A stretch of 32,705 nucleotides of DNA, from the NCBI GenBank assembly GCA_017541995.1, contig JAFXYD010000031.1, forward strand, positions 1-32,705. Direction: 5' to 3'. The DNA is from Oscillospiraceae bacterium. Its GTDB lineage: Bacteria; Bacillota; Clostridia; Oscillospirales; Oscillospiraceae. Below the pieces are notes generated by a model that had not been told where the DNA came from, did no database searches, and saw nothing but the letters and a program-made list of their open reading frames with translations. The translations under genes and the position numbers were made by a program. Shown here in pieces: positions 12,680 through 29,420 of this stretch (within the stretch, counting starts at the first letter, position 1; each line of letters opens with the position of its first letter).

Positions 12680-14122
12680 TTATCCCACGGGCTGCAGCAG
12701 ATCCTTCACCTTGTAGAGGAAGGTCACAACCTGGGCCCGGCTGCACAGGGCTCTGGGGCTGAATTTGCCTTCGCTGGTGCCGCCGGTGACCTGGTTCTCA
12801 AAGGCCCAGAGGATGGGCTTGTAGTAATACTTGCCGGGCTTGACGTCGGTGAAGGGGCTCTGGGTCAGCGTGGGCTCCTGCTTGCCCGCGGCGTTCCAGA
12901 GGAAGGTCATGATCTCCGCCCTGGAGCAGGCCGCCCGGGGGGCAAAGCTCGTCTCGGTCTTGCCGCCGGTGATGCCGTTCTCCACCGACCAGAGCACGGG
13001 CTTGTAGTAGTACTTGCCGGGCTTGACGTCGGTGAAGGGGCTCTGGGTCAGCGTGGGCTCCGGCTTGCCCGCCACGGTCCAGAGGAAGGTCATGGCCTCG
13101 GCCCGGGTGATGGTGGCTTTGGGGGCGAAGGTGCTTTCCGTCTTGCCGGAGGTGACGCCGCTGAAGTAGGCCCAGTCGATGGGCTTATGGGCCCAGTTGC
13201 CGTCGGAGGGCATGTCGGTGAAGACCTCGGCGGCGCAGAGGCGGCCCTCCTTGGTCTCATTGCAGCGGGAGCAGACAAAGCGGGCCGTGCCGTGATCGCT
13301 CTCCCCGGCCTCCGTCAGAATCTGATTCAGCTTCCAGGCGTGGCCCAGGGCGGGGATTTTCTCATCCTTTGTGGCGCTCTTGCAGACGGTGCAGCTGTAG
13401 CGGACGGTGCCCTCCTGGGTGCAGCTGGGCTCCACCACCACGGTGCCCGCGTCCCACTTGTGCTGACCGGTGGGGTCCACCCGCTCGGTCCGGGTATAGC
13501 CGCATACCGTGCAGGTGTAGGTCTTCTCGCCGCTCTGCGCGCAGGTGGGCTGCTTGGTGATTTTGCCGCTGTCAAAGGCGTGCACGTAGAGGCACTGCTT
13601 GTAGCCGGTGATGCCCAGGTCCGCCAGGGTGTAATTTTTTGTGCCGATGACCAGACGGGTGATCTCCATCACCAAGGGCAGGCGTTCGTTCAGAACGTCC
13701 AGCAGCTCAGCCGTTCTGGAGCTGTCGCCGGTGTAGCTTTTGAAGGAGCTGAAGCTGGAGCCGTTGTAGCCGGCCTGGATCTGGACGGTCCCCTTGGCCT
13801 CGTTGCCCTGGTAACTCATGATATAGGCGTTGTAGGCGGGACTGGGATTGCTGGAGATGCGCCAGGTGACTTCGTAGTTTTCGTCAAACGTGGAGAGCTC
13901 GATGTAGCCGGAGGACTCCAGGTAGAAGACGCCGAAGTAGGCGTTTTCGCCGATGTTAAAGCCGTCGGACCACCATCCGGCATCGGAGTCATACTGCCCC
14001 GCCTTGGCGAGCTCCGTCAGGTAAGTGTGGACCTCCTTGGCGCTGGCCGCCTCCGCGGGCATCACGAAAATGCTCACCGCCAGCACCAGAGCCAGCAGCA
14101 GGGAGAGAACGCGTTTTTTCAT
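12680..14122 (-). CDS. S-layer homology (SLH) surface protein with Cys-rich repeats
   Basis: Exported, wall-attached protein of 480 residues. A signal peptide covers about 1-26 (MKKR, hydrophobic core, cleavage near AEAA-SA). Residues 27-180 form a domain I do not recognise. Residues 190-295 hold three Cys-x2-Cys units of the pattern P-x-C-x4-G-x3-Y-x-C-x2-C with His-x-Trp spacers (C194, C204/C207; C234, C244/C247; C284/C287). Three SLH domains follow at about 299-353, 362-413 and 422-475, each with the TRAE/SRAE/SRAQ motif, which bind secondary wall polymer. The start at 14122 has GAAGGA upstream; a longer start at 14143 has none. SLH units 2 and 3 are near-identical in DNA. A paralogue lies upstream. 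Function beyond surface display is unknown. Confidence 0.9.
   Translation of the reverse strand: MKKRVLSLLLALVLAVSIFVMPAEAASAKEVHTYLTELAKAGQYDSDAGWWSDGFNIGENAYFGVFYLESSGYIELSTFDENYEVTWRISSNPSPAYNAYIMSYQGNEAKGTVQIQAGYNGSSFSSFKSYTGDSSRTAELLDVLNERLPLVMEITRLVIGTKNYTLADLGITGYKQCLYVHAFDSGKITKQPTCAQSGEKTYTCTVCGYTRTERVDPTGQHKWDAGTVVVEPSCTQEGTVRYSCTVCKSATKDEKIPALGHAWKLNQILTEAGESDHGTARFVCSRCNETKEGRLCAAEVFTDMPSDGNWAHKPIDWAYFSGVTSGKTESTFAPKATITRAEAMTFLWTVAGKPEPTLTQSPFTDVKPGKYYYKPVLWSVENGITGGKTETSFAPRAACSRAEIMTFLWNAAGKQEPTLTQSPFTDVKPGKYYYKPILWAFENQVTGGTSEGKFSPRALCSRAQVVTFLYKVKDLLQPVG
12815..13061 (-). repeat. Internal 64-bp direct repeat in the SLH gene
   Basis: Positions 12815-12878 and 12998-13061 agree at 63 of 64 bases, offset by 183 bp, which is 61 codons or one SLH period. 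This suggests recent duplication or gene conversion between SLH units and could allow repeat-number change. Confidence 0.85.
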
Positions 14123-14177
14123 GGGTAGAGTTCCTTCTTTCATTCTTAATCATGTGAACAGAGGATCACACAACCAT

Positions 14178-14337: not shown

Positions 14338-15860
14338 TTACGGCTCCAGGGGAGCGGGGTCCGGAGTGGGCTCCGGGTCGGGCTCCTCGGGCAGGGGGTC
14401 AGCAGTGAGCAGCTCGTTGGCCTTGTAGAGGAAGGTCACGGTCTGGGCCCGGGTGCAGACCTTGTTGGGGCCGAAGGCGGTGGCGGTAACGCCGCCGGTG
14501 ATTTGATTCTGGTAGGCCCAGAGCACGGCCTTATAGTAATACTTGCTCTCGGAGACGTCCGTGAAGGGGCTCTCTTCGGCTGCGGGCTCCGGTTTCCCCG
14601 CGGCGTTCCAGAGGAAGGTGACGATCTGGGCCCGGGTGCAGTTCTTCTTAGGCGCGAAGCTGGTGGGCGTGGCGCCGGTGGTGACCCCGCGCCTACGGCC
14701 CAGAGCACCGGCTTGTAGTAATACTTGCCCTCCGCCACGTCGGTGAAGGGATTCTCGGTGCCGGCAGGGGCGGGGCTGCCCATGGCCTTATACAGGAAGC
14801 TCACCACCTCGGCCCGGGTCACCGTGGCCTTGGGGGCGAAGGTCGTGGCGGTCTTGCCGGAGGTGACGCCGCCGAAGTAAGCCCAGTCAATGGCCGCGTG
14901 GGCCCAGTTGCCGTCGGCGGGCATATCCGTGAAGACCTCGGCAGCGCAGAGGCGGCCCTCCTTGGACGCCTGGCAGCGGGAGCATGTATATTCTGCAAAA
15001 CCGCTGTGCAGCTCCTGCCCTTCCTGCGGCTCGGTCACGACCTTTGACAGCTGCCAGGCATGGCCCAGGGCAGGGAGCTCCTTGGACTCCTGCCACATGC
15101 AAACTACGCAGCTGTAGCGCATCCAGCCCGTCTCCGTGCAGGTCGGCTCCTGGGTCACGGTCCCCTGATCCCAGCTGTGCGCCTTCGTCGGGCTCAGAGA
15201 ATAGCGGCGGACACTGCCGCAGGCGCCGCAGCGCAGCTCCTTGCTCCCGAATTTGCAGCTCGGCGCTTCGAGGATCACAGCGCCGCCCCAGGAATGCGTA
15301 TGTCCGGCGGGGTAGCTCGTAAAGCCGAGGGCAGCCAGATTGCTGCCGCCCTGTGCAAGGATCAGCCGCAGCTCCTCCAGCGCTTCCTTCATTAAGTATG
15401 TTGCAAGCGGGTCAAATCCCTCCGTATCTCCGAGGCTGTCATGGACCGTCAGCATGCTGGTCAGCGTGAACGCGGCTGGCACGATCCGATAATGCGCTTC
15501 CCCTCCGCCGTTGGAAGCATAAATGTTGCTGATGGATCCATCCTGGTTCAGGGTCATAGAGAAGTTGAGCCACGCGGCATATCCGCTGAGATAGGAATAA
15601 TACACTTCAATTTGATGCTTCTGCGGGTGGTAGACCACCTGAAAATGGTGCTGCTCGGCTTCTGCCGCGTCCGCCTCCCGCAGCGATTTTTCGGTTGCGT
15701 ACCCGTAGGAATTGGAGAAGGCGGGGCTGCCGTTCTGCTGGATAAAATCTGCCAAAACCTGATAGCCGCTGTTGGCCGCCTCCGCGCGCGGCAGACTCTG
15801 CGTAAGCGCTGCTGTAAGGAGGATCGCTGCGAGGAACAGGCAAAGCATTCTCTTTTTCAT
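14338..15860 (-). pseudogene. Second SLH surface protein, frameshifted
   Basis: Paralogue of the neighbouring SLH protein. The intact frame would give about 507 residues: signal peptide (1-29), unknown domain (30-185), three Cys-x2-Cys units (about 201-296), three SLH domains from about 308, and a Pro/Glu-rich tail. After VLWAV (residue 389, at 14692-14694) the frame is lost. Continuing one frame over restores SLH sequence (TTGATPTSFAPKKNCTRAQ and on) down to the stop at 14338, so a single base is missing where an Glu-like GAG codon would lie. Unrepaired, the first frame reads on to 14436 as Pro/Arg/Ser-rich nonsense after 1.4 complete SLH units. AAAGGAG precedes the start. It lies 52 bases after the sigma gene. 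Real mutation, phase variation or a sequencing error are all possible. Confidence 0.82.
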
Positions 15861-15912: not shown

Positions 15913-17790
15913 TTATGGCTGCGCAGGGTTTTCCGTCTGGTCTGTCTCTTCTGAAGGATCAATTTCATCCCGGTCGGCTGCGTGGACAGAATAAGTCTTC
16001 ACGGTCTCGCCGTTCAGCTTCACATAGATGTGCGCGTCGCCCGCTCCGACGATGCTGCTGTTTACGAAAAAGCCGTGCTCATACCAGTGCTCGATTCCCC
16101 CGCCCGTAAACCCGCTGAGCGGGCCAAGTCGGATGACTTCCGGTCTGTCCGTGCTGATCTCAGGCTCGGATTCCCCCTGAACGACCAGGGAGAACCAGAG
16201 ACTTTCGCCTGTCTGGCAATTCAGTTGGCCGTATGCGTCTGCTTCCTGACTAAGCTCTGCGCGCAACAGCTTCGGGGGATGCTCCGGATTTGTGATCGTA
16301 AACTCCCGGTAGATTTCACCCTTCAGCGTACAGAATATTCTTGCGTTTCCGCTGCCCACAACGGAAATGCGCCAACAGTATCCGGTTTCGCCCGGTTTCA
16401 AGTCGCTGTCGGTATATTTCCCCTGCGCTTCGATCTTTACCACGGCGGGATTATCTGTGTATAATGTGGGAGCCCCGCCGTTGATCGTCGAGATCTTCAC
16501 ATACCCAAAGGCATACTGATAGGAAAGGCTCGGAAGATCATAGGCATTCTCCTCAAAGGGCCAGCTGTATCCTGTGATCTGCGGCTCTCTCTGGGGCTGC
16601 GTCACGGAGGGCTCATTGGGCGTCGGCTCCGTGGGGGTCGGAGTCGGGGAAACGGGGGTGGCGGGCTGCGTAGGGGTCGGGGCGGGGGGCTGGTTTTCGG
16701 GCTCCGTGGGCTCCGGCTCCGTGGGAATTGCCGCGGGCTCAGAGGGCTCCGGCTCTGTGGGGGGCTCTGTCGCTTCGGTGGAGGGCTCCGGCAGCTCCTC
16801 CGGGGTATCCGGCTCCGTGAAATCCGGGAGCTCGGTTTCAGCCGGGGGCAGATCCTCGTCGCTGTCCGGGACTTCCACCGTGTGCAGGATCTGAATAGGC
16901 TCCGTGGGCTGTACGTCGCCCATTGTCGTCTGACTCCGCAGCCAGCTGTAGCCCAGGACCCCGCCGCCCAGGGCGGTGGCTGCCAGGAGACCCAGGCACA
17001 CCCGGCCCAGAGCCGTCTGGAAGAAGCTGCGGCCGACATGCACCGCGGCAGCCTCCGCCGCGGCCTCCGCCGCCCGGGGCAGCGCCCCCGCCAGCAGCTT
17101 TTCCCCCGCCCCGGGGTCGGGCTTCGCCCGCTTCAGCAGGGCCAGGAGGAAGGGCAGGGGCGACAGGCCGTATAGCTTCACGCCCTGGGCCTCCAGACGG
17201 CGCACCTCGGTCTCCACCCGCTTCTTGCTGCGGCGGAGCTGGGTTTTGACGGTGCTCTGGCTGAGATTCAGGCTCTCCGCGATCTCCTTTACGGGGATCT
17301 GCTCATAGTAGTACATGCCCAGCATCAGGCGCTGGGCGTCGGTGAGGCCCTCCAGGATCTCCCGGATCAGCCGGGCGGTCTCCGCCCGATCCAGGGCCAG
17401 CTCCGGGGCTGCCTCCACCCGCTGATCCGGCAGCTCCGGCTCCCCCGCCTCCTCCTCCGTCAGCTCGGAGAAGAGCAGGGGCCGCTTCCGCCGCAGCTGG
17501 GCTCTGGCCTCGTTGACGGCGATTTTCCGCAGCCAGGGCAGGAAGGAGGCGGCGTCCCGCAGCTGATCCAGGCGGGAAAAGGCCTTCAGATAGGTATCCT
17601 GCTGCACGTCCAGCACCAGCTCTTCATCCCGCAGCATGGCGTGGAGGCTGCGGTAGAGCTCCAGGCTGCTGGCCTCGTAGAGCTCCGTCAGGGCGGCCCG
17701 GTCCCCCGCCCTGGCCCGCGCCAGCAGGGCTTCATCTATTTTCGCGGCCGCCGGGCTTCGGCTCTCCGGGGCTTCCCGTTCATTTTTCAT
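15913..17790 (-). CDS. Membrane-tethered ECF-like sigma factor with extracellular Ig-like repeats
   Basis: A 625-residue protein joining a sigma factor to a surface domain. Sigma region 2 is at about 33-104 (DVQQDTYLKAFSRLDQL, WLRKIAVNEARAQLRRKR) and region 4 at about 147-200 (VKEIAESLNLSQSTVKTQL helix-turn-helix). An Ala-rich linker leads to one membrane helix at about 262-283. Outside lie a Pro/Thr/Glu stalk (about 296-405) and two related Ig-like units (about 410-500 and 508-603), marked by VVGSGNARIF and IVGAGDAHIY. Normal ECF factors have about 170-200 residues and are held by a separate anti-sigma. Here sensor and effector are one chain, so release by proteolysis or membrane-bound action is inferred. 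The start overlaps the upstream 58-residue ORF as ATGA; no anti-sigma gene is adjacent. It could alternatively be an anchored regulator of its own envelope operon. Confidence 0.88.
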   Translation of the reverse strand: MKNEREAPESRSPAAAKIDEALLARARAGDRAALTELYEASSLELYRSLHAMLRDEELVLDVQQDTYLKAFSRLDQLRDAASFLPWLRKIAVNEARAQLRRKRPLLFSELTEEEAGEPELPDQRVEAAPELALDRAETARLIREILEGLTDAQRLMLGMYYYEQIPVKEIAESLNLSQSTVKTQLRRSKKRVETEVRRLEAQGVKLYGLSPLPFLLALLKRAKPDPGAGEKLLAGALPRAAEAAAEAAAVHVGRSFFQTALGRVCLGLLAATALGGGVLGYSWLRSQTTMGDVQPTEPIQILHTVEVPDSDEDLPPAETELPDFTEPDTPEELPEPSTEATEPPTEPEPSEPAAIPTEPEPTEPENQPPAPTPTQPATPVSPTPTPTEPTPNEPSVTQPQREPQITGYSWPFEENAYDLPSLSYQYAFGYVKISTINGGAPTLYTDNPAVVKIEAQGKYTDSDLKPGETGYCWRISVVGSGNARIFCTLKGEIYREFTITNPEHPPKLLRAELSQEADAYGQLNCQTGESLWFSLVVQGESEPEISTDRPEVIRLGPLSGFTGGGIEHWYEHGFFVNSSIVGAGDAHIYVKLNGETVKTYSVHAADRDEIDPSEETDQTENPAQP

Positions 17791-17963
17791 TCCGCGTCAC
17801 CGCCCTTCGCCTTCGTTTTTGGCTCCTGCCCGCGCACAGCCCGCCGTCGGGCAAAAAATTGCTTCAGAATCTGCTCCAGCTGGCGGGCGGATATCTCCGG
17901 GGCCAGCCGGTAGGATTCGATCAGGCTGCGGTATTGCAGTCCGAAATCCGGCTCGGGGCACAT
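17787..17963 (-). CDS. 58-residue ORF coupled to the membrane sigma factor
   Basis: Short protein beginning MCPEPDFGLQYRSLIESYRL and ending in a Lys/Arg-rich tail. The middle (about 22-45, EISARQLEQILKQFFARRRA) is probably helical. No family is recognised and there is no signal peptide or membrane helix. GGGAGGTG lies just before the ATG at 17963. Its stop overlaps the sigma start as ATGA, so sigma translation is probably coupled to it. It could be a small sigma-binding partner or simply a leader peptide; the sequence alone cannot decide. In-frame sequence extends further upstream but lacks a ribosome site and enters the neighbouring terminator. Confidence 0.65.
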   Translation of the reverse strand: MCPEPDFGLQYRSLIESYRLAPEISARQLEQILKQFFARRRAVRGQEPKTKAKGGDAE

Positions 17964-17997: not shown

Positions 17998-18027
17998 TAG
18001 ATGCGCGAGGGGGCGAAAAAGTTTACA
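17998..18027 (-). promoter_or_regulatory. Candidate ECF-type promoter of the sigma operon
   Basis: On the minus strand TGTAAAC (18027-18021) and CATCTA (18003-17998) are 17 bases apart, resembling the AAC / CGTC-type boxes used by ECF sigma factors. No good TTGACA/TATAAT pair was found here. Autoregulation is therefore possible but unproven. Confidence 0.35.
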
Positions 18028-18039
18028 TCTTTTGAAAAA

Positions 18040-18100
18040 AATTTTTCGAAAAAAGCCGCGGCGCCCGGAGCCTGTCTATTCGGACAGGCTCCGGGCGCCG
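18040..18100 (-). terminator. Terminator of the PAS/HATPase gene
   Basis: A perfect 18-bp stem (18059-18076 with 18083-18100) around a six-base loop; on the minus strand it is followed within a few bases by TTTTTT and a further T-rich run. It lies just after the gene's stop at 18119 and upstream of the sigma operon. Confidence 0.9.
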
Positions 18101-18118: not shown

Positions 18119-19177
18119 TTACAAAAGATCCTCCAGGCGGTAGAGCCGGGCGGGCAGGATCGGAGACAGGGCGATCAGATTCTCCTCGGGGTCCAGGGAG
18201 CGCCGGGACTCGAAGCAAAGCTCCGCCTCCCCGCCGTAGCGGGGCAGGGAGAGCAGCGCCGTGACTTCCCCCTCGGCGTCGGCGGAGATCAGAAAGCTCC
18301 CGCCCTGGCAGGCGGCTCCGGCGCTGACCAGGCTCAGCCCCAGGCCCAGGCCTCCGAAGCCCTCCCCCCGCCGGGCGGCGTGGCGGTGGAACAGGGCCTC
18401 CGGCAGGGGCGCGCCGGGGCGGTTGCGCAGGGTGAAGCGGACCCGGTCCGGGCCTTCGGCGCTGAGCTCCAGCGTCACCCTGCCGTCGCCGGCGTTGGCG
18501 GCGGCGTTGGCCGTCAGCTCCCGCAGCAGGGAGGCCGTGAGGGGCCAGTCCAGGCAGGCCTCCAGGGGCCGGGCGGGGATCCGAAGCTCCAGGCTGAGCC
18601 CCGTGGCCGCCAGCAGCTCCCGCAGCTGGCCTCCCAGCTCGTTCATCGCCATGGTCAGCTCCAGCCTGCCCCACCGCGGGACATAGCTTCCCCCCTGCAG
18701 GCGGGCAAACTGCTCCAGGGCCGCGGCGGTGCGCCGCAGCCGGTAGACGCTCCGCAGGGCCTCGGCCGCGCAGCCCGCAAAGGGCTGCTCCGCCGCCGCG
18801 GGGAGCTCCGCCAGGCTGTTCAGGCTCGTGGTCAGATCCTGGAGCACCGTGCGGATGGCCCCCGCCGTGTGGGCCACCGTGCGGGCGTTGGCGGCGGGGA
18901 GGAAGCGCTCCTCCGGGCAAAGGAAGCAGAGCACGGTCCCCTCCGCCGCGGCGGCGCGCAGCTGCCAGCTCTGCCCCGCCAGCCTGCAGCTTGAGATCAC
19001 GGCGGGCTCCCCCGCCCCGGGCAGCTCCGCCCCCGGGAAGCACTCGGCAAAGGGCGCCCCGTCCTTCAGCCCCAGCTCCCCGGCCTGGGGGGTACAGAGC
19101 GCCAGCCTGCCCTCCCACACGGCGAAGGCGGGGCCGCCGGTGAGGGCCAGTATCTGTTGATATGCAGCCGCTTCCAT
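18119..19177 (-). CDS. Soluble PAS-like / HATPase protein (orphan histidine kinase-like)
   Basis: A 352-residue cytoplasmic protein. The N-terminal 90 residues look PAS-like. A helical region (about 98-185) stands where the dimerisation/phosphoacceptor domain would be. Its only candidate histidine is H103 in RTVAHTAGAIRT, without a normal H-box. The HATPase domain (about 205-315) has the N-box ELTANAAANA (220-229), a weak NRPGAP G1 (252-257) and the G2 motif GLGLGLSLV (276-284). A Cys-containing tail follows. There is no membrane segment and no response regulator nearby. The start at 19177 follows GGAGAGGAGG; a longer frame to 19264 lacks a ribosome site. It has its own promoter and terminator. 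It may be an orphan kinase, or an ATP-binding anti-sigma-like regulator, possibly of the neighbouring envelope genes. Confidence 0.8.
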   Translation of the reverse strand: MEAAAYQQILALTGGPAFAVWEGRLALCTPQAGELGLKDGAPFAECFPGAELPGAGEPAVISSCRLAGQSWQLRAAAAEGTVLCFLCPEERFLPAANARTVAHTAGAIRTVLQDLTTSLNSLAELPAAAEQPFAGCAAEALRSVYRLRRTAAALEQFARLQGGSYVPRWGRLELTMAMNELGGQLRELLAATGLSLELRIPARPLEACLDWPLTASLLRELTANAAANAGDGRVTLELSAEGPDRVRFTLRNRPGAPLPEALFHRHAARRGEGFGGLGLGLSLVSAGAACQGGSFLISADAEGEVTALLSLPRYGGEAELCFESRRSLDPEENLIALSPILPARLYRLEDLL

Positions 19178-19232
19178 GCCGCCGCCTCCTCTCCGGAATA
19201 GTATGCGCCGATGGGCGCCGGATTTTTCAAGT

Positions 19233-19261
19233 ATTATAATACAAAATTCGACAAAAAGCAA
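19233..19261 (-). promoter_or_regulatory. Promoter of the PAS/HATPase gene
   Basis: On the minus strand TTGCTT (19261-19256), 17-base spacer, TATAAT (19238-19233). Confidence 0.75.
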
Positions 19262-19286
19262 CACGGGGCGGGGAGAAAAATAACAG

Positions 19287-19326
19287 TTGACAAATACGTC
19301 ACAATCGGTTACAATTTAGTTACAAT
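19287..19326 (+). promoter_or_regulatory. Promoter with three phased GTYACAAT repeats
   Basis: TTGACA (19287-19292), 17-base spacer and TACAAT (19310-19315). GTCACAAT (19298-19305), GTTACAAT (19308-19315) and GTTACAAT (19319-19326) start 10 and 11 bases apart, covering the spacer, the -10 box and the start region on one helix face. They are a good candidate operator. Confidence 0.75.
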
Positions 19327-19351
19327 CAGAGAATTATGGGAGGAACGCTCC

Positions 19352-20572
19352 ATGAAAGCGATTCAGCGCATCGGCGCGCTGCTTCTGAGCCTGGCGATCA
19401 CGGTCTGCCTGCTGGGCGGGCTCAGCCCCAGAGCGGAGGCAGCGGAATACAAAACCGCCATCGGCACCGTCACCGCGGGCTCCCTGCGGCTGCGGGAGCG
19501 CGCGGACATCGGCTCCGACATTCTGGCCACGGCCCACCGCAATGACAAGGTGGTGGTCATCGACCACACAGGCAGCTGGTACAAGGTGGTCTACAACCTG
19601 GAAACCGGCTATATGCACGAGGATTATCTGGAGCTGGACGAGGTGAAGAACGTCAAGCTGGGCTACGCCCGCTTCGGCGGCGTCACCAACGTCCGCCAGC
19701 GCCCCACCACCGACTCTCCCGTGGTGGCCCGGGCGCCCCGGAACGAGACCTGCTTCATCGTGGGCTTTAACCGGGGCTGGTACAAGGTCAGCTACAACGG
19801 CCGCAGGGGCTACGTCCGCTCCGATCTGGTCTCCATGCTGGAGCTCCCCTACGAGAACTACGGCAGCCGGGGCAACACCTACCGGGAGGACAGCGACAGC
19901 CTCGGCAGCTCCAGCGGCAGCTCCAGCAACAGCGGCAACTCCAGCAGCGGCAGCAGCTCCAACAGCGGCAGCAGCTCCAACAGCGGCAGTAGCTCCAACA
20001 GCGGCAGCTCCGAAAGCGCCCCTGAGACCGGCGCTTCCGCCGCCGGGCTGGGCAGCTCCGGCATGAGCAAGAACGAGAAGCTGCGGATGATCTTCGGCAC
20101 CGCGAGGATTTCCGACTACCGCACCGTCTACGCCAACAACGCCGAGGCCAGGCCCCACATGACCGAGGTCACCGTCAAGACCTGGGACATCAACAGCGCC
20201 GGGGAAAAATACACCCGCACCTGGAAGCTGACCGTCCATAAGAACATCGCCGCCACGGTGGAGGCCATCTTCGCGGAGATCTACGCCCTGCCCGAGAAGC
20301 CCCCCATCCACAGCCTGGGCGGCTACCGCTGGGCCAACAAGTCCGAGCACAGCGTGGGTCTGGCCATCGACATCAACCCCCGGGAGAACTACTACTGCTC
20401 CCCCAGCGGCAAGGCCCTGACGGGCAGCTATTTCCGCCCGGACAGCGATCCCTATTCCATCCCCGTCAACGGCAGCGTGGATCAGATCTTCGCCAAGTAC
20501 GGCTTCACCCGGGGCATCTACTGGCGGACGGGCTACCGCGATTACATGCACTATTCCTTCTTCGGCACTTAA
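19352..20572 (+). CDS. Secreted SH3b - M15 (VanY-like) peptidoglycan peptidase
   Basis: Exported cell-wall enzyme of 406 residues. Signal peptide about 1-31. Two bacterial SH3 (SH3b) domains lie at about 35-94 and 107-163 (LRLRERADIGSDILAT and VRQRPTTDSPVVARAP) and probably bind the wall. A Ser/Gly/Asn linker (183-240) follows. The peptidase_M15-type catalytic domain (about 243-406) has the zinc-site motif SEHSVGLAIDIN (H333-x6-D340) and YMHYSFF (H400). It would cleave D,D- or L,D-peptide bonds of peptidoglycan. The start at 19352 has GGGAGGA 7 bases upstream; the longer open frame to 19211 runs through the promoter. It is transcribed alone between its own promoter and a strong terminator. 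Confidence 0.92.
   Translation: MKAIQRIGALLLSLAITVCLLGGLSPRAEAAEYKTAIGTVTAGSLRLRERADIGSDILATAHRNDKVVVIDHTGSWYKVVYNLETGYMHEDYLELDEVKNVKLGYARFGGVTNVRQRPTTDSPVVARAPRNETCFIVGFNRGWYKVSYNGRRGYVRSDLVSMLELPYENYGSRGNTYREDSDSLGSSSGSSSNSGNSSSGSSSNSGSSSNSGSSSNSGSSESAPETGASAAGLGSSGMSKNEKLRMIFGTARISDYRTVYANNAEARPHMTEVTVKTWDINSAGEKYTRTWKLTVHKNIAATVEAIFAEIYALPEKPPIHSLGGYRWANKSEHSVGLAIDINPRENYYCSPSGKALTGSYFRPDSDPYSIPVNGSVDQIFAKYGFTRGIYWRTGYRDYMHYSFFGT
19949..20002 (+). repeat. 18-bp tandem repeat encoding the Ser/Gly/Asn linker
   Basis: Three consecutive copies of GGCAGCAGCTCCAACAGC (one base differs in the third), each encoding Gly-Ser-Ser-Ser-Asn-Ser, with decayed copies before it. Linker length could vary between strains. 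Confidence 0.85.
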
Positions 20573-22157: not shown

Positions 22158-22577
22158 CTACAGCCCGGCCAGCAGGCCTTCCAGCCTCTCAAAGAGCTCG
22201 GCCTCGCTCTCATAGGGCAGGATGTGGAAATAGGGGTCCCCCGTGAGCATGGCGGAGAGCTGGGTGCGGGTCTTGTCGTAGAAGAGATAGCAGGGCTTGC
22301 CCAAGCCCTCGGCGTAGGCCAGCTCGTAGCCCACCCCCAGGGAGGGATTGGTGCATTCCCCGATCAGCAGCTCGCTCTCCCGCAGCCAGGCGGTGTCCTG
22401 GGCGTAGATTTCCGCGTCTCTGTCCTTGCCCTGCTCCAGCAGGCTCAGCTCGAGGTGGCCCACGTGCTCGGTCAGCACAGCATGGCCTTTCTCCTTCATA
22501 AAGTCGATCATCCGGGCGTAGAGGGCGGCGTCCGCCCGGCCGCCCCGGATGGAGCCGGCAAAGTAAATCTTTTTCAT
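22158..22577 (-). CDS. DNPH1/RCL-like 2'-deoxynucleoside 5'-phosphate N-hydrolase
   Basis: Member of the nucleoside 2-deoxyribosyltransferase superfamily, closest to DNPH1 (RCL), which splits deoxynucleoside monophosphates into base and deoxyribose 5-phosphate. The 139 residues begin with IYFAGSIRGGRAD (4-16) and include AVLTEHVGHLEL (33-44) and NPSLGVGYELAYAEGLGK (77-94). These correspond to the phosphate-binding loop, a substrate loop and the catalytic Glu (E85). Its ATG overlaps the addA stop as ATGA, so it is translated together with the recombination nuclease. This suggests a role in clearing or sanitising nucleotides released during DNA processing, which is inference. A deoxyribosyltransferase activity is the alternative. 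Confidence 0.85.
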   Translation of the reverse strand: MKKIYFAGSIRGGRADAALYARMIDFMKEKGHAVLTEHVGHLELSLLEQGKDRDAEIYAQDTAWLRESELLIGECTNPSLGVGYELAYAEGLGKPCYLFYDKTRTQLSAMLTGDPYFHILPYESEAELFERLEGLLAGL

Positions 22578-25500
22578 GTTGTTTCCCCCTGTTTTTGTCT
22601 TTGCTCCGGAAGCGCGATGAGGGTATCGGTGGCGAAGAAGTAGAGCAGCTTCTCCCCCACGGGGCAGCCGAAAATGCGGGCCAGGGCCTCGGCGTAGGCC
22701 TCCAGCTGGGGGCGGTAGCGCTCCCCTGCCGCGGCCTCGGTCCCGGGCTGCACCCGGTCGGTTTTGAAGTCCACCACGCTGATGCTTCCGTTTCGGAAGA
22801 GGCAGCAGTCGGTGACCCCCTGCAGCAGGATCTCCTCCCCCGCCGCCGCGGGATAATAGCGCTCCGCCGGGCTCAGAATGGAGAATTTGAACTCCCGCAG
22901 CACCCGATCCGCGGCCCGGATCCGCTCCCCCAGGGGGCCCCGGAAGACCCGCAGCAGCTTCTCCGGGTCCACAGCCCGGGCCTGGGCGGGGGTCAGAAAG
23001 GCTTCCCGCACCATGTGCTCCAGCTGGGCCCGGATCTGCTCCAGATCCGCCGTCCGGGAGAAATCCAGATACTGCATGGCCTGGTGTACGGCGCTGCCCC
23101 GCTGGGCCGGGGTCAGGGGCTTCTCCTGCCGGATCAGGGAGGGCTTGCGGAGCTTCAGCCGCAAATAGTCCTCCCGGGGCGCGCCGTCGTCCGCCTCCCG
23201 GTCCAGCTCCCGGCCCTTGAGCTGGGTGGCGGTGAGCTTGGAGGGAACCCCCAGGGCGCCGCCCCAGGGATAGCAGAAGGCCAGACTCTCTGCCAGGGCC
23301 CCGGCGTCGAGGGTCGGGGCGGCGGCCTCGGAGGGGGCCGGCGCGGGGAGCTCAGCCTCCTTCTCCGGCAGATCGTGCCATTCGATCCGCCAGGGCCATT
23401 CGGAGCGGGAGGTCCCGGCGGGCTTCCCGGCCCGGGCGTGCAGGGCCCCGGCCTCGGTGCGGAGCAGGGCCGTCAGCAGCACCCAATCCCCGGGGCAGAC
23501 GGCCCGGGCGGCCTGCCCGGGGGCGGTCTCCGGCGTCAGACAGGCCGCCAGCCCCGCCAGGCGGCTCTCCTGGCGGCTGCCGCAGTCGCACAGGATCAGC
23601 ATATCCCGGGCCCGGGTCATGGCCACGTATAAGATCCGCAGCTCCTCGGACATATTCTCCGCCCCGGTCTGGCGGCTGATGGCCGCCTTGGCGATGGAGC
23701 TGAAGCGGGTGTGGGTGGGCCGGTCATAGACGGAGCAGCCCGCCCCCAGGGCGCTGTGGAACTGCACCAGGGCCTTCTGATCCTCCAGATTGAAGCGGTG
23801 GGAGAGGCCGCAGAGCAGCACCACCGGGAATTCCAGGCCCTTGGACTTGTGGACGCTCATCACCGTGACGGCGTTGGACTGGGGCCCGGCCAGGGTGACG
23901 CCGCCCTCCGCCTTCAGCTCCTCCACGTGGGCCAGCAGCTGGTGGAGGCTCTTTTTGCCCCCCTCGGAGAAGGCGGCGGCCAGCTCATAGAAGGCCCGGA
24001 GATTCTCCAGCCGGGCGGGGCCCCTGTCCATGGCCCCGTAGACGGCCTCCAGCTCCACCGCCTGCTGGAGCTTTTCCAGCAGCAGATGCAGGGGCAGCAG
24101 CGGCACCAGCTCCCGCAGCTGCCGAATCACGGAGATCGCCCGGACAAGGCTCGGCTCCTCCGATTCCGCCGCGGCGTCGAAGAGACTCTCTCCCCGCTGG
24201 GGCCGCCGGACCCGGGCCAGGGCGGAGGCCTCCACCCCGAAGATGGGGCTCAAAAGGGCGCCGGTCAGGGGGATGTCCTGGTGGGCGTTGTCCAGCACCT
24301 TCAGAAGGCAGAGCAGGGCCTGGACCTCGGCGCTGTCCAGCAGGCTCTCGCCGCTGTCGCTGGCGGCGGGGACGCCCCGGCGCTGCAGAGCCTCCAGGTA
24401 GAACTCCGCCACATTTTTGGGGGAGCGCAGCAGGATCACCACGTCTCCGGGCTCCGCGGGCCTGAGGCCCTCCTTCCCCCGGATCAGGGTACGGCTGTCC
24501 AGCAGTTCCCGGATCCGCCGGGCGGCGAACTCCGCCTCGGCCCGGTCCTTCTCCGGGGTCTCGGCATCCTCGTCCTCCTGCCTGGTGGACAGCACGTGAA
24601 GCTCCACCTGGGTCTGGGGCAGGGGCTCCATGGGCCGCCCGGGCCGCAGGGCCTCCGCGGGGCCGTAGTCCAGGCCCCCCACCCGGGTGGACATGCAGCT
24701 GCGGAAGACCGCGTTGACGGCCTCCAGCACCGCCTCCCCGGAGCGGAAGTTGTGGGACAGCAAAATCCGCTGCCGCCCCGCGGGGTCGGCCTGCTCGGCG
24801 TCGGGGTAGGCGCCGTATTTTTCCAGGAAAATCCCGGGGTCCGCCAACCGGAAGCGGTAGATGGACTGCTTGACGTCCCCCACCATGAAGCGGTTGGCCC
24901 CCTCCCGGGAGACGGCCCGGAAGATGGCGTCCTGGACCTGGTTGGTGTCCTGGTACTCGTCCACCATGATCTCCCGGTAGCGCTCGCTGATCCGGCGGGC
25001 TGTGGGGGTGGGGGTCCTGCCGTCGGGCTCCAGCAGAAGCCGCAGGGCCTGGTGCTCCAGATCCCCGAAGTCCAGGGCGTGGAGGCGGCGCTTCTCCGCC
25101 TCGAAGCGGGCCGCGAATTCCCGGGCCAGGGCAAAGAGGGCCCCCAGGGTCTCGGCGGACTGGGCCAGATCCGCCAGCACCGTCTCGGAGGGGCCGTAGA
25201 GATCCTCACAGCGGCGGCGCAGCAGCTCCAGGGCCTGCTTCCGCACGGCCTTGGCCCGCTCCTGGAGCTCGGGGTCCTCGCAGCTTTTCACCACGGGCAG
25301 GCGGCCGAAATCCGTGGCGGCGGGAATGGCCGCCAGGGTCTCGTCCCAGCTCTCGCAGTCCGCCAGACGCCGGAGCTGGGCGGCGTTCTGTCCGAAGAGG
25401 GGGCGGTATTTGGCCAGGCTGTCGCAGCCCTCCAGCTCCTGCCCCACCCGCTCCAGGGCCCGGGCCTGCTCTCTGGCGCAGTCCCGCAGTCCCGCCAGCA

Positions 25501-26152
25501 GCCACAGGCCCCAGGGGGTCTGCTCGGCGCCGGTGACGCCCCTCTGGTCCAGCCGCGCCTCGCATTCCTCCAGCCAGCCCGCGGGGTTGAGATTGCACTG
25601 GGCGGTGTTGAACACCGAGAGGATCAGCCCGGGCAGGCGGCGGTCGTCCCGCCCGGCCCCCAGGCCGTCCACCAGCTGCCGCAGGGCGGGATCCTCCCCG
25701 ATGGAGGCGTAGCGCTCCTCCAGCAGCTCGTCCACCAGCTTTTCCCGGAGAGCGGCGGCCTCGGTCTGCTCCAGCATGCGGAAATCCGCTGGGATGTCCA
25801 GCTCGTAGGCAAACTCCCGCAGCAGCTCGGCGCAGAAGGCGTGGACCGTGGAGATCTGGGTCATGTAGATGCGGCTCTGCTGCTTTTGCAGGTGGCGGTT
25901 GTCCGGGTCCTCCGCCAGCCGGGCCGCCAGCTCCCGGGCGATCCGGGCCCGGAGCTCCGCCGCGGCCTTTTTCGTAAAGGTGATGATCAGAAAATCGTTG
26001 ATGGACACCGCCCGGTCGCTGCGGAGGATCTGCCGCATCAGCCGCTCCACGATGACCTTGGTCTTGCCGGAGCCGGCGGCGGCGGCCACTAAGATAGGCC
26101 CGCCGGGCCGCTCCACGGCCAGGGCCTGGGCCTTTGTCAGGGTATCAGCCAT
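22574..26152 (-). CDS. addA: ATP-dependent helicase/nuclease subunit A
   Basis: AddA is the UvrD-like helicase and nuclease subunit of AddAB, the Gram-positive RecBCD counterpart, which resects double-strand breaks for RecA. The 1192 residues show Walker A AAGSGKT (25-31), Walker B IMVDEYQDTN (about 395-404), GDVKQSIYRFR (about 425-435), VMSVHKSKGLEF (about 765-776) and ILYVAMTRARD (about 830-840). The RecB-type nuclease is at the C-terminus, with GVTDCCLF and VVDFKTD near 1115-1131 and a following Gln-x2-x-Tyr. The ATG overlaps the addB stop by 8 bases, and a DNPH1-like gene overlaps the end. Everything expected of a working enzyme is present. Confidence 0.96.
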   Translation of the reverse strand: MADTLTKAQALAVERPGGPILVAAAAGSGKTKVIVERLMRQILRSDRAVSINDFLIITFTKKAAAELRARIARELAARLAEDPDNRHLQKQQSRIYMTQISTVHAFCAELLREFAYELDIPADFRMLEQTEAAALREKLVDELLEERYASIGEDPALRQLVDGLGAGRDDRRLPGLILSVFNTAQCNLNPAGWLEECEARLDQRGVTGAEQTPWGLWLLAGLRDCAREQARALERVGQELEGCDSLAKYRPLFGQNAAQLRRLADCESWDETLAAIPAATDFGRLPVVKSCEDPELQERAKAVRKQALELLRRRCEDLYGPSETVLADLAQSAETLGALFALAREFAARFEAEKRRLHALDFGDLEHQALRLLLEPDGRTPTPTARRISERYREIMVDEYQDTNQVQDAIFRAVSREGANRFMVGDVKQSIYRFRLADPGIFLEKYGAYPDAEQADPAGRQRILLSHNFRSGEAVLEAVNAVFRSCMSTRVGGLDYGPAEALRPGRPMEPLPQTQVELHVLSTRQEDEDAETPEKDRAEAEFAARRIRELLDSRTLIRGKEGLRPAEPGDVVILLRSPKNVAEFYLEALQRRGVPAASDSGESLLDSAEVQALLCLLKVLDNAHQDIPLTGALLSPIFGVEASALARVRRPQRGESLFDAAAESEEPSLVRAISVIRQLRELVPLLPLHLLLEKLQQAVELEAVYGAMDRGPARLENLRAFYELAAAFSEGGKKSLHQLLAHVEELKAEGGVTLAGPQSNAVTVMSVHKSKGLEFPVVLLCGLSHRFNLEDQKALVQFHSALGAGCSVYDRPTHTRFSSIAKAAISRQTGAENMSEELRILYVAMTRARDMLILCDCGSRQESRLAGLAACLTPETAPGQAARAVCPGDWVLLTALLRTEAGALHARAGKPAGTSRSEWPWRIEWHDLPEKEAELPAPAPSEAAAPTLDAGALAESLAFCYPWGGALGVPSKLTATQLKGRELDREADDGAPREDYLRLKLRKPSLIRQEKPLTPAQRGSAVHQAMQYLDFSRTADLEQIRAQLEHMVREAFLTPAQARAVDPEKLLRVFRGPLGERIRAADRVLREFKFSILSPAERYYPAAAGEEILLQGVTDCCLFRNGSISVVDFKTDRVQPGTEAAAGERYRPQLEAYAEALARIFGCPVGEKLLYFFATDTLIALPEQRQKQGETT

Positions 26153-29100
26153 GGGCTTGCTCCTCCTTTTCCAGAGATTGCCAGAATTCCCCGGCCTTCA
26201 CGGCCCGGAGCTTCCGCAGGGGCAGCTCGCCGCTGTCCACGCGGCAGACCTCCCGGTAGGGGCACCAGCGGCAGGCGTTGTGGTCCTCCCCCCGCCAATA
26301 GGGGTCCGGGGCGATGGTCCCGGCCCAGACGCTGTCCGCCAGGTCCCCCAGCTTGCGGCGGACGTGGCGCTCCACCAGATCCAGCTGCTGCCGGTCCGCC
26401 AGGTCGCCGCTGCGCTCGCCGGTCTTGCGGGAGATCTTGTAGGGCAGATAGACGGGCTCCTGCCCCGGCTCCATGGCCTGAAGAATCTCCTCGTCGTCCA
26501 GCAGCAGGCCCTTGCGGCGCAGATGCTTCCGGCGCTGCTTGTCCGCCTCCTCCGGCTCCACCCGGCCCTGGGTGGTCTCCACGTCCCAGCGGGCCGGGAA
26601 ATAGAGCACCCCGGCGGGCTCCAGGCTGCGGCCGTAGTAGTTGGCCGCCTCCCGGGTCAGGGCGAAGAGATAGATCAACATCTGCAGGCCCATGCCGCTG
26701 AGGATATCGGCGTAGTCGAAGTCCTTGCGGCCGGTTTTATAGTCCACCACCCGCAGGTAGGTTTTGCCCCCCGCGGTGGTATAGAGATCCACCCGGTCCA
26801 CCACCCCCATGAGGGAGCCCTCGGCCAGGTTGCCGGTGATGGGGATGGCGGTTTTGTCCTTGAATTCCTGTTCAAAATACGTGGGGATAAAGCGGGAGGC
26901 GGCCAGCTCCCGGGCCAGGTCCTTCACCACCTGCTCCACCTCGCCGAAGCTGCGCTCCAGCAGATAAGCCCCCCGGCTGGAATACTCCGCCAGGCCCCCC
27001 AGCACCTCCTGGGTAAAGCGGTCGTACCACTGCCGGGCCAGGGCCAGCACCTCCGCCTCCGGCAGGACGGCAAAGCCGCCCCGGCTCTCCACCTCCTCCA
27101 CGGTGTGCTGCAGGACGTAGTGGACCAGGGTGCCGTACATGGCGGGGTCCACGGCGGCCTGCTTCCGCTCCTGCAGCCGCAGGCCGTACTGGAGGAAGTA
27201 GCCGAATTTGCAGGCCGCCAGCTTGTCCACCTTGGAGGCCGAGAGGCTGAGGCTGCTGCCGTAGAGCCGCCGCACCGCCTCCCGGTCCAGACGGCCCGGC
27301 ACGTAGGCGGCCCGCTCCCGCAGGGCCCGCACCGCCGGAGCCAGCTCCGGCAGGGCCTCCAGGGCCGGACGCGCCTCCTCGCCCAGGGAGGCCAGCAGGG
27401 CGGCGGCCCCGGCGGCGCTGCCCGGCAGCGGGGCGGAGCTCAGGCCGCGCCGCCGGGGGAAGAGGGCCTCCAGGCGGCTGAAGAGATAGCTGGGAGCCTC
27501 CCGGTTGCAGCTGACAAAGAGGCTTTCGGCGGGGGCGGTCAGCAGGGCGTAGGCGGTGAAGAGCTCCCGGTCCAGCCGGGTCTCCCCGTCCGGCGCGGCG
27601 GGCAGGCCCGCCTGCTTCATGTGCCGCCGGTCCGTCTCGCTGAGCAGGCCGCCCCCGGCGTCATAGCCGGGCAGCAGGCCGTCGGAGGCCCCCAGGAGGA
27701 TCAGATGGGAGAGCCGGGCGTTGCGCATGTCCGCCAGACTGCCCACCCGGACGCTGTCCACGGTGGCGGGGATGGTGCCCACGCTGCCCCGGGTCAGGGC
27801 CGCCCGGAAGAAGCGGCAGAACTCCTCCGGCGTGCGGACGCTCTCCCCCAGCACGCCGTAGATCTGCTCCATGGTGGAGATCAGCAGCTCGTAGAGCTGG
27901 GCCAGGGCCTGGGCCCGCTGCAGCTCTCCCCGCTCCGCCATCTCCCCGGCCTGGGCCGCGATGGTCCGCTCCAGGCCGATGGCCTCCAAAAATCGCTCCA
28001 GGGCCTGGATCTGGGCCCCGGTGTTGGCCGCGGCGCGCAGCTCGTCCCGCAGCCGCAGCAGGGGCGTGATCGCCGCCTCCCGGGCCCGGTTCAGCGGAGC
28101 CAGCAGGCCCTCCAGCTCCTGGGGGGCGAGCTGCTCCAGGCTGGGGCCCGCGGGGTTGCGGGCGAAGGGGGCGTCCCAGCGGCTGCCGTGGAGATTCCAG
28201 ACAAAGGCGTAGTTTTCCAGCCGGTCCGCCTCCTCCTGGCTCAGGGGGGCGCAGCCGGAGCGGAGATACTCGCAGACCTCCTCCGCCTCCATGCCCCGGG
28301 CGGCGGCCTCCAGGGCGAAGACCACGGCCCGGATCACGTTGTGCCGCAGCAGATCCCGGCTGCCGGAGAAATAGGCGGGCACCCCCGCCCGGTCAAAGAG
28401 GGTTTCCAGCATGGGCTCGTAGACCCCGGGGTCGGTGTAGGCCACCCCCAGCTCCCGCCAGCGGGCTCCGCCCCGGATCAGCTCCCGGATCCGCCCCAGG
28501 GCGGCGTCGCACTCCGCCCGGGGATCCGGGGCCGCCAGCAGGGTCACCCGTTCGGTCTCCTCCTCCCAGGCCTCGAGCCTGGGGGCGAAGAGCCCCCGGG
28601 CCAGGCGCTCCAGCTCGGGCTGCCGGGGCTCCGTCACCTGGGCCGCGCTGCGGAAGGGAATGTCCCCCCGGCGGGCCAGCTCCCGGAGGGCTCCCGCGGT
28701 GGCCCGGGGCACGGCGAAGACGCTCTGCCCGGCCCGGAGGCTGTCGCAGCAGAGCCAGATCTCCAGCTCCGCCGCCCGCTGGCCCAGAACCTCCAGCACC
28801 CCCAGCTCCTGGGCGGTGAAGTCCGTGAAGCCCTCCACCACCACGTGCAGGCCCCGGGCGAAGTCGCTGTCCAGCAGGGCGTCCCGCAGGCGGTCGAGGC
28901 GGGTGGAGGGATCCTGGGCGGCCTTGGCGCAGACTGTGTCATAGAGCTCCAGGATCAGACAGAGCTCCTCCAGCTTCTCGGAGAGGGGCTCGGAGAGGGC
29001 CTCCCGGGCGGCCCGCATCGCGGCGGCGTCCAGGCCGCAGGAGTGGAACTCGTCCACCACCCGCAGCAGCTCCTCCAGAAACTCCGGCTTGGTCACCTGG

Positions 29101-29420
29101 GCCCCGTAGAGCCGCAGCCTGGGCCGCAGCAGCTCCAGGGCCCCCGCCATGGCGATGAGGCGGCCGCTGCGGTCCAGGGTGGGAACAGCCGCGCCCCCCG
29201 CCACGGAGAAGACCCGGGTGGCCAGGCGGGTGAAGCTCAGCACCTCCGCCCGGCGGCTGATGGTGTCGCCCCCCGCCCGGCACAGGGCCAGCTCGGCGTC
29301 GAAGGAATTCTGCTCCGGCACAATGAGGATCCCCCGGCTGCACTCCGGCAGCTCGCAGAGCCCCCGGACGGCCAGGCGGGCGTTGCTCCGCCAGTCGGGG
29401 CTGTATTTCAGCGTCAACAT
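26145..29420 (-). CDS. addB: ATP-dependent nuclease subunit B
   Basis: AddB is the second AddAB subunit, which recognises Chi and cuts the opposite strand. The 1091 residues (1166 in B. subtilis) keep the IVPEQNSFDAELAL motif (about 33-46). They also keep the C-terminal RecB-like nuclease (GVVDRVDLY and LRVVDYKTGRKDF) and the four cysteines of the iron-sulfur staple: ACKFGY near 735 and C-x2-C-x5-C (CRWCPYREVC) near 1050-1060. Oddity: the N-terminus, MLTLKYSPDWRSNARLAV, has no G-x4-GK[ST] Walker A loop, and an in-frame stop just upstream rules out a longer start. The ribosome site is weak. An extended -10 (TGATATGAT) lies about 35 bases upstream on the minus strand. Confidence 0.92.
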   Translation of the reverse strand: MLTLKYSPDWRSNARLAVRGLCELPECSRGILIVPEQNSFDAELALCRAGGDTISRRAEVLSFTRLATRVFSVAGGAAVPTLDRSGRLIAMAGALELLRPRLRLYGAQVTKPEFLEELLRVVDEFHSCGLDAAAMRAAREALSEPLSEKLEELCLILELYDTVCAKAAQDPSTRLDRLRDALLDSDFARGLHVVVEGFTDFTAQELGVLEVLGQRAAELEIWLCCDSLRAGQSVFAVPRATAGALRELARRGDIPFRSAAQVTEPRQPELERLARGLFAPRLEAWEEETERVTLLAAPDPRAECDAALGRIRELIRGGARWRELGVAYTDPGVYEPMLETLFDRAGVPAYFSGSRDLLRHNVIRAVVFALEAAARGMEAEEVCEYLRSGCAPLSQEEADRLENYAFVWNLHGSRWDAPFARNPAGPSLEQLAPQELEGLLAPLNRAREAAITPLLRLRDELRAAANTGAQIQALERFLEAIGLERTIAAQAGEMAERGELQRAQALAQLYELLISTMEQIYGVLGESVRTPEEFCRFFRAALTRGSVGTIPATVDSVRVGSLADMRNARLSHLILLGASDGLLPGYDAGGGLLSETDRRHMKQAGLPAAPDGETRLDRELFTAYALLTAPAESLFVSCNREAPSYLFSRLEALFPRRRGLSSAPLPGSAAGAAALLASLGEEARPALEALPELAPAVRALRERAAYVPGRLDREAVRRLYGSSLSLSASKVDKLAACKFGYFLQYGLRLQERKQAAVDPAMYGTLVHYVLQHTVEEVESRGGFAVLPEAEVLALARQWYDRFTQEVLGGLAEYSSRGAYLLERSFGEVEQVVKDLARELAASRFIPTYFEQEFKDKTAIPITGNLAEGSLMGVVDRVDLYTTAGGKTYLRVVDYKTGRKDFDYADILSGMGLQMLIYLFALTREAANYYGRSLEPAGVLYFPARWDVETTQGRVEPEEADKQRRKHLRRKGLLLDDEEILQAMEPGQEPVYLPYKISRKTGERSGDLADRQQLDLVERHVRRKLGDLADSVWAGTIAPDPYWRGEDHNACRWCPYREVCRVDSGELPLRKLRAVKAGEFWQSLEKEEQAHG

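Follow-up and report, generated by a model that had tools for sequence, protein, structure and literature searches.

A sigma factor joined to a stalked repeat domain

The window, as the whole 32,705-nt stretch of Oscillospiraceae DNA analyzed here is called, carries on its reverse strand a single ORF of 625 codons (15913..17790) whose 625-aa product combines sigma regions, a linker, a hydrophobic helix, a stalk and repeats. Sigma region 2 (residues 37-103; 17482..17682) and sigma region 4 (residues 140-191; 17218..17373) are both recognized by Pfam above the curated cut-offs (Sigma70_r2, E 3.2e-8; Sigma70_r4_2, E 1.6e-11), and the protein also matches the sigma70-ECF model of NCBIfam above that model's cut-off. 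Residues 24-197 align with the solved SigW (phmmer, E 6.1e-13), and the solved relatives of the sigma part include SigW, SigH, SigK and RpoE. By these matches the window protein is an ECF (group 4) sigma factor possessing sigma2 and sigma4 only. A sequence-only reading of this DNA had proposed an ECF-like sigma factor in one chain with a helix, a stalk and repeats, which the domain matches bear out; it had allowed that key sigma contacts might be lost, and both sigma regions were found intact.

Downstream of region 4 in the protein is a linker with a conserved motif of the KLYGLSP type (residues 203-221; 17128..17184), delimited from an alignment of 31 members of the family described below and from motif counts. 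It is followed by a putative transmembrane helix (residues 261-279; 16954..17010), which in the hydropathy scan is the single hydrophobic segment of the window copy and is marginal, with a mean KD of 1.68 from residue 261. Among the 69 members aligned through this region, exactly one hydrophobic segment occurs after residue 150 in 63 and two occur in 6. The flanking residues of 80 members do not fit the positive-inside rule for an N-in orientation and display the opposite charge bias, with a mean K+R of 1.1 before the helix versus 2.3 after it. The earlier proposal of one transmembrane helix thus stands as to a single segment in a conserved place, and is weakened by the hydropathy of the window copy and by the flanks. 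Both of these features would be expected if the helix were not inserted and the whole chain were cytoplasmic, but this seems very improbable, given that the position of the helix is constant across the family, where its mean KD reaches 2.4, and that ectodomains of these types are also seen in SLH proteins and in proteins that begin with a signal-type N-terminus.

The long Pro/Thr/Glu stalk that had been proposed is confirmed by the sequence (about residues 296-402; 16585..16905) and by the composition of this region over 80 members (E 14%, P 14%, T 13%). Beyond the stalk reside two repeats (15961..16578) that match each other in a BLASTP self-comparison (E 2e-8). Their mutual relationship agrees with the initial description of two Ig-like repeats; the Ig-like fold itself is unconfirmed, as no Pfam family is matched up to E 10 and no relative is found in the PDB. 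In one paralog (L009) the repeats give a sub-threshold, BatD/DUF11-like Pfam match (E 0.008). The term Ig-type is used below for members whose ectodomains resemble that of the window.

A paralogous family with exchanged ectodomains

Judged by sequence similarity, the window protein is one of many paralogs and not a singleton. In total, 83 family members were recovered from regions fetched around genome-search matches (the own-genome fragment C98 and a divergent ORF, C16, were excluded), 82 of them from the window's own genus, with up to 14 per genome. They share the sigma-linker-helix module and differ in their ectodomains. The single-chain architecture, which the sequence-only reading had not recognized from known systems, therefore holds, but it is not isolated, being represented by many paralogs in the genus that are mostly accompanied by a small partner ORF. 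In the window's own genome (2.48 Mb in 122 contigs, 78% complete), eight places, the window included, match below E 1e-50; two of the matching fragments, C56 and C98, lie at contig ends and could be one gene.

When 59 genomes were examined at E <= 1e-20, with at most 21 candidates scored per genome, 21 matched, comprising 20 of the 23 genomes of the genus and one from another genus in the taxonomic family. Searching 300 sampled genomes of the taxonomic family with a profile of the module produced matches at E <= 1e-30 in 122, though many of the weaker ones are short ordinary ECF factors. The best 80 of 181 relatives in named genomes come from draft genomes, of the ruminant gut and elsewhere, belonging to Oscillospiraceae, Lachnospiraceae and other Clostridia, and include a fused member, L202, from the isolate Pseudobutyrivibrio sp. 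ACV-2, before which the small ORF was not detected. In most of these relatives sigma4 is likewise followed by a hydrophobic segment, and the C-terminal part is long. A more distant ECF-like ORF (L016:5477-6310, forward strand) is cut by a contig end and is preceded by a gene for a zinc-ribbon protein.

The main alignment comprises 72 of the 83 members; it omits ten members truncated at contig ends and an apparently frameshifted one (L058:5001-6074) but retains two other truncated members (L050 and L085). A second alignment contains 55 of these 72; the other 17, mostly Ig-type, were omitted for a residue limit, and the Pfam tally made on the 55 is therefore weighted to non-Ig types. In that tally LRR_5 occurs in 34 members and Peptidase_S41 in 2. 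The ectodomain types encompass Ig-like repeats, leucine-rich repeats, S41-like domains and others, and the 76 ectodomains that were compared fall into 13 single-linkage clusters, of 46, 16, 3 and 2 members with nine singletons; the cluster of 46 is linked mainly through leucine-rich repeats, and the cluster of 16 resembles the window.

On a tree of the 76 corresponding sigma modules, ectodomain type changes at least 17 times. The minimum is 12 and the mean after shuffling is 28.3, so that ectodomain type is both clustered and exchanged. For instance, two members with leucine-rich repeats, L048 and L052, fall in the same group as the window and further Ig-type members (SH-aLRT 87). These changes bear on the alternative in which the sigma factor is active without release from its tether, or is regulated at the level of transcription alone, and in which the ectodomain serves as an adhesin or a structural passenger instead of as a sensor. 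The resemblance of the ectodomains to surface proteins, and a promoter motif suggestive of autoregulation (see below), would accommodate such an arrangement, but repeated change of the ectodomain with the sigma module kept fits sensor exchange better, and the passenger alternative is regarded as improbable.

Two members (L014:3067-5046 and L100:3909-5873, reverse strand) have the peptidase S41-like ectodomain, the sigma factor being fused there to a protease-like surface domain; both are without the small ORF and without the usual linker motif. In another member (L095) an RsiV-like ectodomain was suspected and was rejected, there being no Pfam match up to E 0.1.

A small companion ORF overlaps the sigma start

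The absence of an adjacent anti-sigma factor, remarked on in the sequence-only reading, holds for recognizable families: no anti-sigma domain was found in or beside the gene by Pfam or among 25 of 84 NCBIfam matches listed, and no anti-sigma family appears among the Pfam families tallied for 55 members. The same tally and the window protein are likewise free of zinc-finger families, and of RsgI-type families (Pfam). However, a conserved ORF of 58 aa (17787..17963, reverse strand), identified by a profile and by its codon-position pattern, overlaps the sigma start by 4 nt. Profile matches lie before 72 of the 83 members, the other 11 having no detected small ORF. Across these 72 copies, with start codons assigned by rule, the ORF has a median length of 57 aa and overlaps the sigma start in 37, by 4 nt in 22 of those. 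Differences between related copies number 1187, 923 and 1999 at codon positions 1, 2 and 3, respectively (134 pairs, not independent), which is a pattern as in a translated, conserved protein. The product has no match in Pfam or the PDB, and from the alignment it appears to consist of two short helices.

Small-ORF relatives are rarely found away from family members. A profile search of the 23 genus genomes yielded 76 matches, 72 beside members; two others (L272 and L273) each lie before the start of a sigma gene that is cut off by the contig end, one (L270) has no sigma gene in the roughly 300 nt left on its contig, and one (L271, in G015:C87) lies without a sigma gene. Weaker relatives precede fused sigma genes in 10 of 65 ORFs at loci presumed from their lower identity to lie outside the genus. 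The small ORF also accompanies an intact linker motif, both within the genus (66/72 with the small ORF versus 6/11 without; p 0.005) and among the 65 other-locus ORFs (7/10 versus 12/55; p 0.005), the p values in each case ignoring shared descent.

This pairing with the sigma gene and with the linker is what would be expected if the small companion were the real switch, namely a minimal two-helix anti-sigma factor or adaptor that blocks the sigma factor by docking on the sigma-linker part. The tether would then mainly localize the pair, and the surface domain would alter the grip of the small protein without cleavage of the chain. Against this stand the lack of similarity to known proteins in Pfam and the PDB, the disregard of descent in the linker association and the 11 members that are without the small ORF. 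Overall, such a switch is judged unlikely, if a good deal less so than a passenger ectodomain.

A shared promoter-like motif and its predicted targets

Upstream of the small ORF, family members share a motif, GTMAACC-N17-RTCTW, with nearly constant spacing. Variants of its -10 element include CATCTA, CGTCTA and GGTCTT. It occurs within 170 nt upstream as an exact match in 27 of 80 members (shuffle mean 0.05) and with at most one mismatch in 54 of 80 (shuffle mean 0.15), counts that measure consistency, as the pattern was derived from the same sequences. The motif is present in 51 of 69 members with the small ORF versus 3 of 11 without it. In the window the corresponding ECF-type promoter-like site, GTAAACT-N17-ATCTA (17998..18026, reverse strand; 0.08 expected), is the only match with up to two mismatches to a slightly relaxed pattern. 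That the sigma factor has its own promoter-like motif argues for autoregulation.

A terminator-like hairpin of 18 pairs (18059..18100, reverse strand) parts the sigma operon from the gene upstream, terminator-like sites overall being no more common than in shuffles. For the product of that gene (18119-19264, reverse strand) Pfam gives a histidine-kinase-type ATPase domain, below threshold, and nothing else; the gene was considered as part of the operon and was rejected on account of the intervening hairpin.

A longer form of the motif, with at most one mismatch, was found at 43 sites in 13 of the 23 genus genomes, and the reversed pattern at none. Twenty of these sites lie within 500 nt upstream of a family member. 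The remaining 23 are not before members, and a gene could be called at 22. Judged with a crude predictor, 18 of these 22 genes begin like exported or membrane proteins, versus 93 of 331 background ORFs (p 2.5e-7, a value that is overstated because several of the 22 are counterparts in related genomes and are not independent). The lead motif of the leucine-rich domain is present in at least 9 of the 22. In the window's own genome, looser scans perform no better than the control (5 sites versus 3 for the reversed pattern, at three mismatches) or little better (4 versus 1, with a short form of the motif). Two targets in this genome are a secreted leucine-rich repeat protein whose frame also holds SLH repeats (C67) and an apparent small membrane protein whose gene precedes that of an HTH regulator (C10), with a counterpart in G002.

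The latter order, in which the promoter motif precedes a gene for a small membrane protein and then one for an HTH regulator, is seen at two loci from two species (L146 and L151), and it is possible that this arrangement is a conserved second branch of the regulon. Promoter-like sites also precede genes for zinc-ribbon and membrane proteins in two species (L148, with two mismatches, and L156, with none).

SLH genes and the match between putative sensor and surface protein

As had been described from the sequence, SLH surface-protein genes follow the sigma gene. The first (14338..15860, reverse strand) lies directly downstream and is broken by a frameshift, which could be genuine or an error of sequencing: 14436-15860 contains one SLH stretch before the break, and SLH repeats continue in another frame. 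The second (12680..14143, reverse strand) contains three SLH repeats and has a sigma-70-like promoter at 14205-14178.

The search for sigma-TM-stalk-Ig architectures and their neighbors in Oscillospiraceae, which had been suggested as a check, uncovered 16 Ig-type members among the 76 clustered, and 12 of these have same-strand SLH ORFs at distances of up to 3.8 kb, lying downstream in 11 cases and upstream in one. The four others are L047 and L059, which have none nearby, and L043 and L050, which are truncated at contig ends. The same BLAST test places SLH ORFs near 5 of 46 members with leucine-rich repeats, a lower bound, because the test uses window-type SLH proteins and misses distant ones such as that next to L048. 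SLH repeats are common in the window's own genome (92 repeats in 38 frames); they occur within a few kb of the Ig-like places C79, C25 and C98, and none are listed on the contigs of C78, C9, C107 and C63.

In certain loci the sensor and a neighboring surface protein contain the same domain. At L055 the SLH protein beside the sigma gene ends in the same two repeats (29% identity over 196 aa); at L048, whose sensor has leucine-rich repeats, the next gene encodes an LRR-plus-SLH protein that is 79% identical to the sensor over 387 aa; and at L074 a gene of lipoprotein type, located downstream and having a motif of its own, encodes a product 54% identical to the sensor over 380 aa. More generally, 16 of 55 members have, no more than 6 kb downstream, an ORF resembling their own ectodomain, about six of these ORFs being tandem sigma copies. 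The window is not among the 16, and its SLH proteins have no similarity to its sensor repeats. The earlier suggestion that the surface domain senses the wall or S-layer and that the adjacent surface genes are controlled accordingly draws support from the SLH genes beside 12 of 16 Ig-type members and from the repeats at L055; the sigma-70-like promoter of the second SLH gene does not agree with it.

A model for one-protein surface signaling

The reading that we favor, with a probability of roughly 0.55, is one-protein cell-surface signaling, in which a tethered ECF sigma factor autoregulates and controls matching surface proteins. It builds on what can be read from the sequences: the architecture, the family with exchanged ectodomains, the small ORF, the motif and the exported character of most targets. 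The sigma factor would reside at the inner side of the membrane, with the linker and a single helix connecting it to a surface domain on a stalk, and the 58-aa protein, being coupled to it in translation, probably assists in its retention or positioning. Tethered together with this small partner, the sigma factor would be inactive at rest. The surface domain would report a ligand or the condition of the wall or S-layer, whereupon the sigma part would be freed, most likely by regulated proteolysis ending with an M50 site-2 protease. Such a protease is present, which says little because it is near universal (14 of 14 controls also possess one). The freed sigma factor would then drive GTMAACC-N17-RTCTW promoters, comprising that of its own operon (the small ORF, the sigma gene and, in Ig-type loci, often SLH genes behind them) and those of scattered surface-protein genes, some with the sensor's own domain. 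Weighing against this reading are the marginal helix of the window copy, the flank charges, the members that are without a small ORF, the dissimilarity between the window's SLH proteins and its sensor repeats, and the weak motif excess in the window's own genome.

Several known systems are comparable. IutY of Pseudomonas putida (ECF243) combines sigma and anti-sigma in one chain (PMC5411451; PMC8999054) and is, according to a review, the only ECF factor for which proteolytic activation of this kind has been characterized experimentally (PMC8999054). As in IutY, an ECF sigma factor, a membrane segment and an outside domain (both putative here) lie in one polypeptide. However, IutY has an anti-sigma domain that works with an outer-membrane receptor and its sigma part is freed by Prc and RseP, whereas in the window family no anti-sigma domain is recognized, only an M50 homolog is seen, the stalked ectodomains are exchangeable and a small ORF is coupled. 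The same activation is predicted for ECF48, ECF52 and ECF53 of Actinobacteria, which bear zinc-finger extensions (PMC8999054). Their C-terminal transmembrane extension resembles that of the window family, where it is putative, and SCO4117, with a Pro-rich region and then a surface domain (PMC8999054), can be likened to the window layout; in contrast, the window family is clostridial, has no zinc finger that could be found and possesses the small ORF. In the SigI/RsgI systems of Clostridium thermocellum, many paralogous membrane sensors per genome control surface genes, as is proposed here; the controlled genes encode surface enzymes and RseP cuts within the membrane helix, but the sensor (the anti-sigma factor) and the sigma factor are separate proteins there (PMC12203970) and one chain here. 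SigI/RsgI is the closest in logic to the window system. On sequence comparison, the window system appears to share its principle with fused ECF factors such as IutY and ECF52 and to lack tested features of each: it is set apart by having no anti-sigma homology (IutY), no zinc finger (ECF52) and no separate sensor (SigI/RsgI). No description of the family was found in the open-access literature searched; the main ECF reclassification lay outside that scope, and a matching group may exist there.

A broader and more tentative idea, which is doubtful but a little more probable than the small companion acting as the switch, is that the family constitutes a widespread undescribed class of one-chain systems in Clostridia, in which an exchangeable sensor is matched to the surface proteins that it controls and the small protein is a minimal regulator. 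Conceivably, S-layer proteins and lipoproteins with the sensor's domain would then be partners or competitors for one ligand, and the unannotated two-helix protein would dock on the shared linker as a new kind of minimal sigma regulator. In the reviews consulted, surface signaling to ECF sigma factors is described mainly via a separate membrane anti-sigma factor. Seen here are the placement of sigma factor and sensor in one chain, the many paralogs, the exchanged sensors, the small partner and a shared motif that predicts targets. Together these features provide a testable code linking sensor domain, sigma factor and surface genes in uncultured rumen bacteria, and, if the small protein is an anti-sigma factor, it would represent a minimal class of regulator that is easily missed by gene annotation.

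Elsewhere in the window, an ORF on the strand opposite to the sigma gene (19211-20572, forward strand) encodes bacterial SH3 domains and an M15-type carboxypeptidase domain. At 22574-29420 (reverse strand) are two adjacent, ordinary genes of the AddA/AddB type, one encoding a UvrD helicase with a nuclease and the other ADDB_N with a nuclease.
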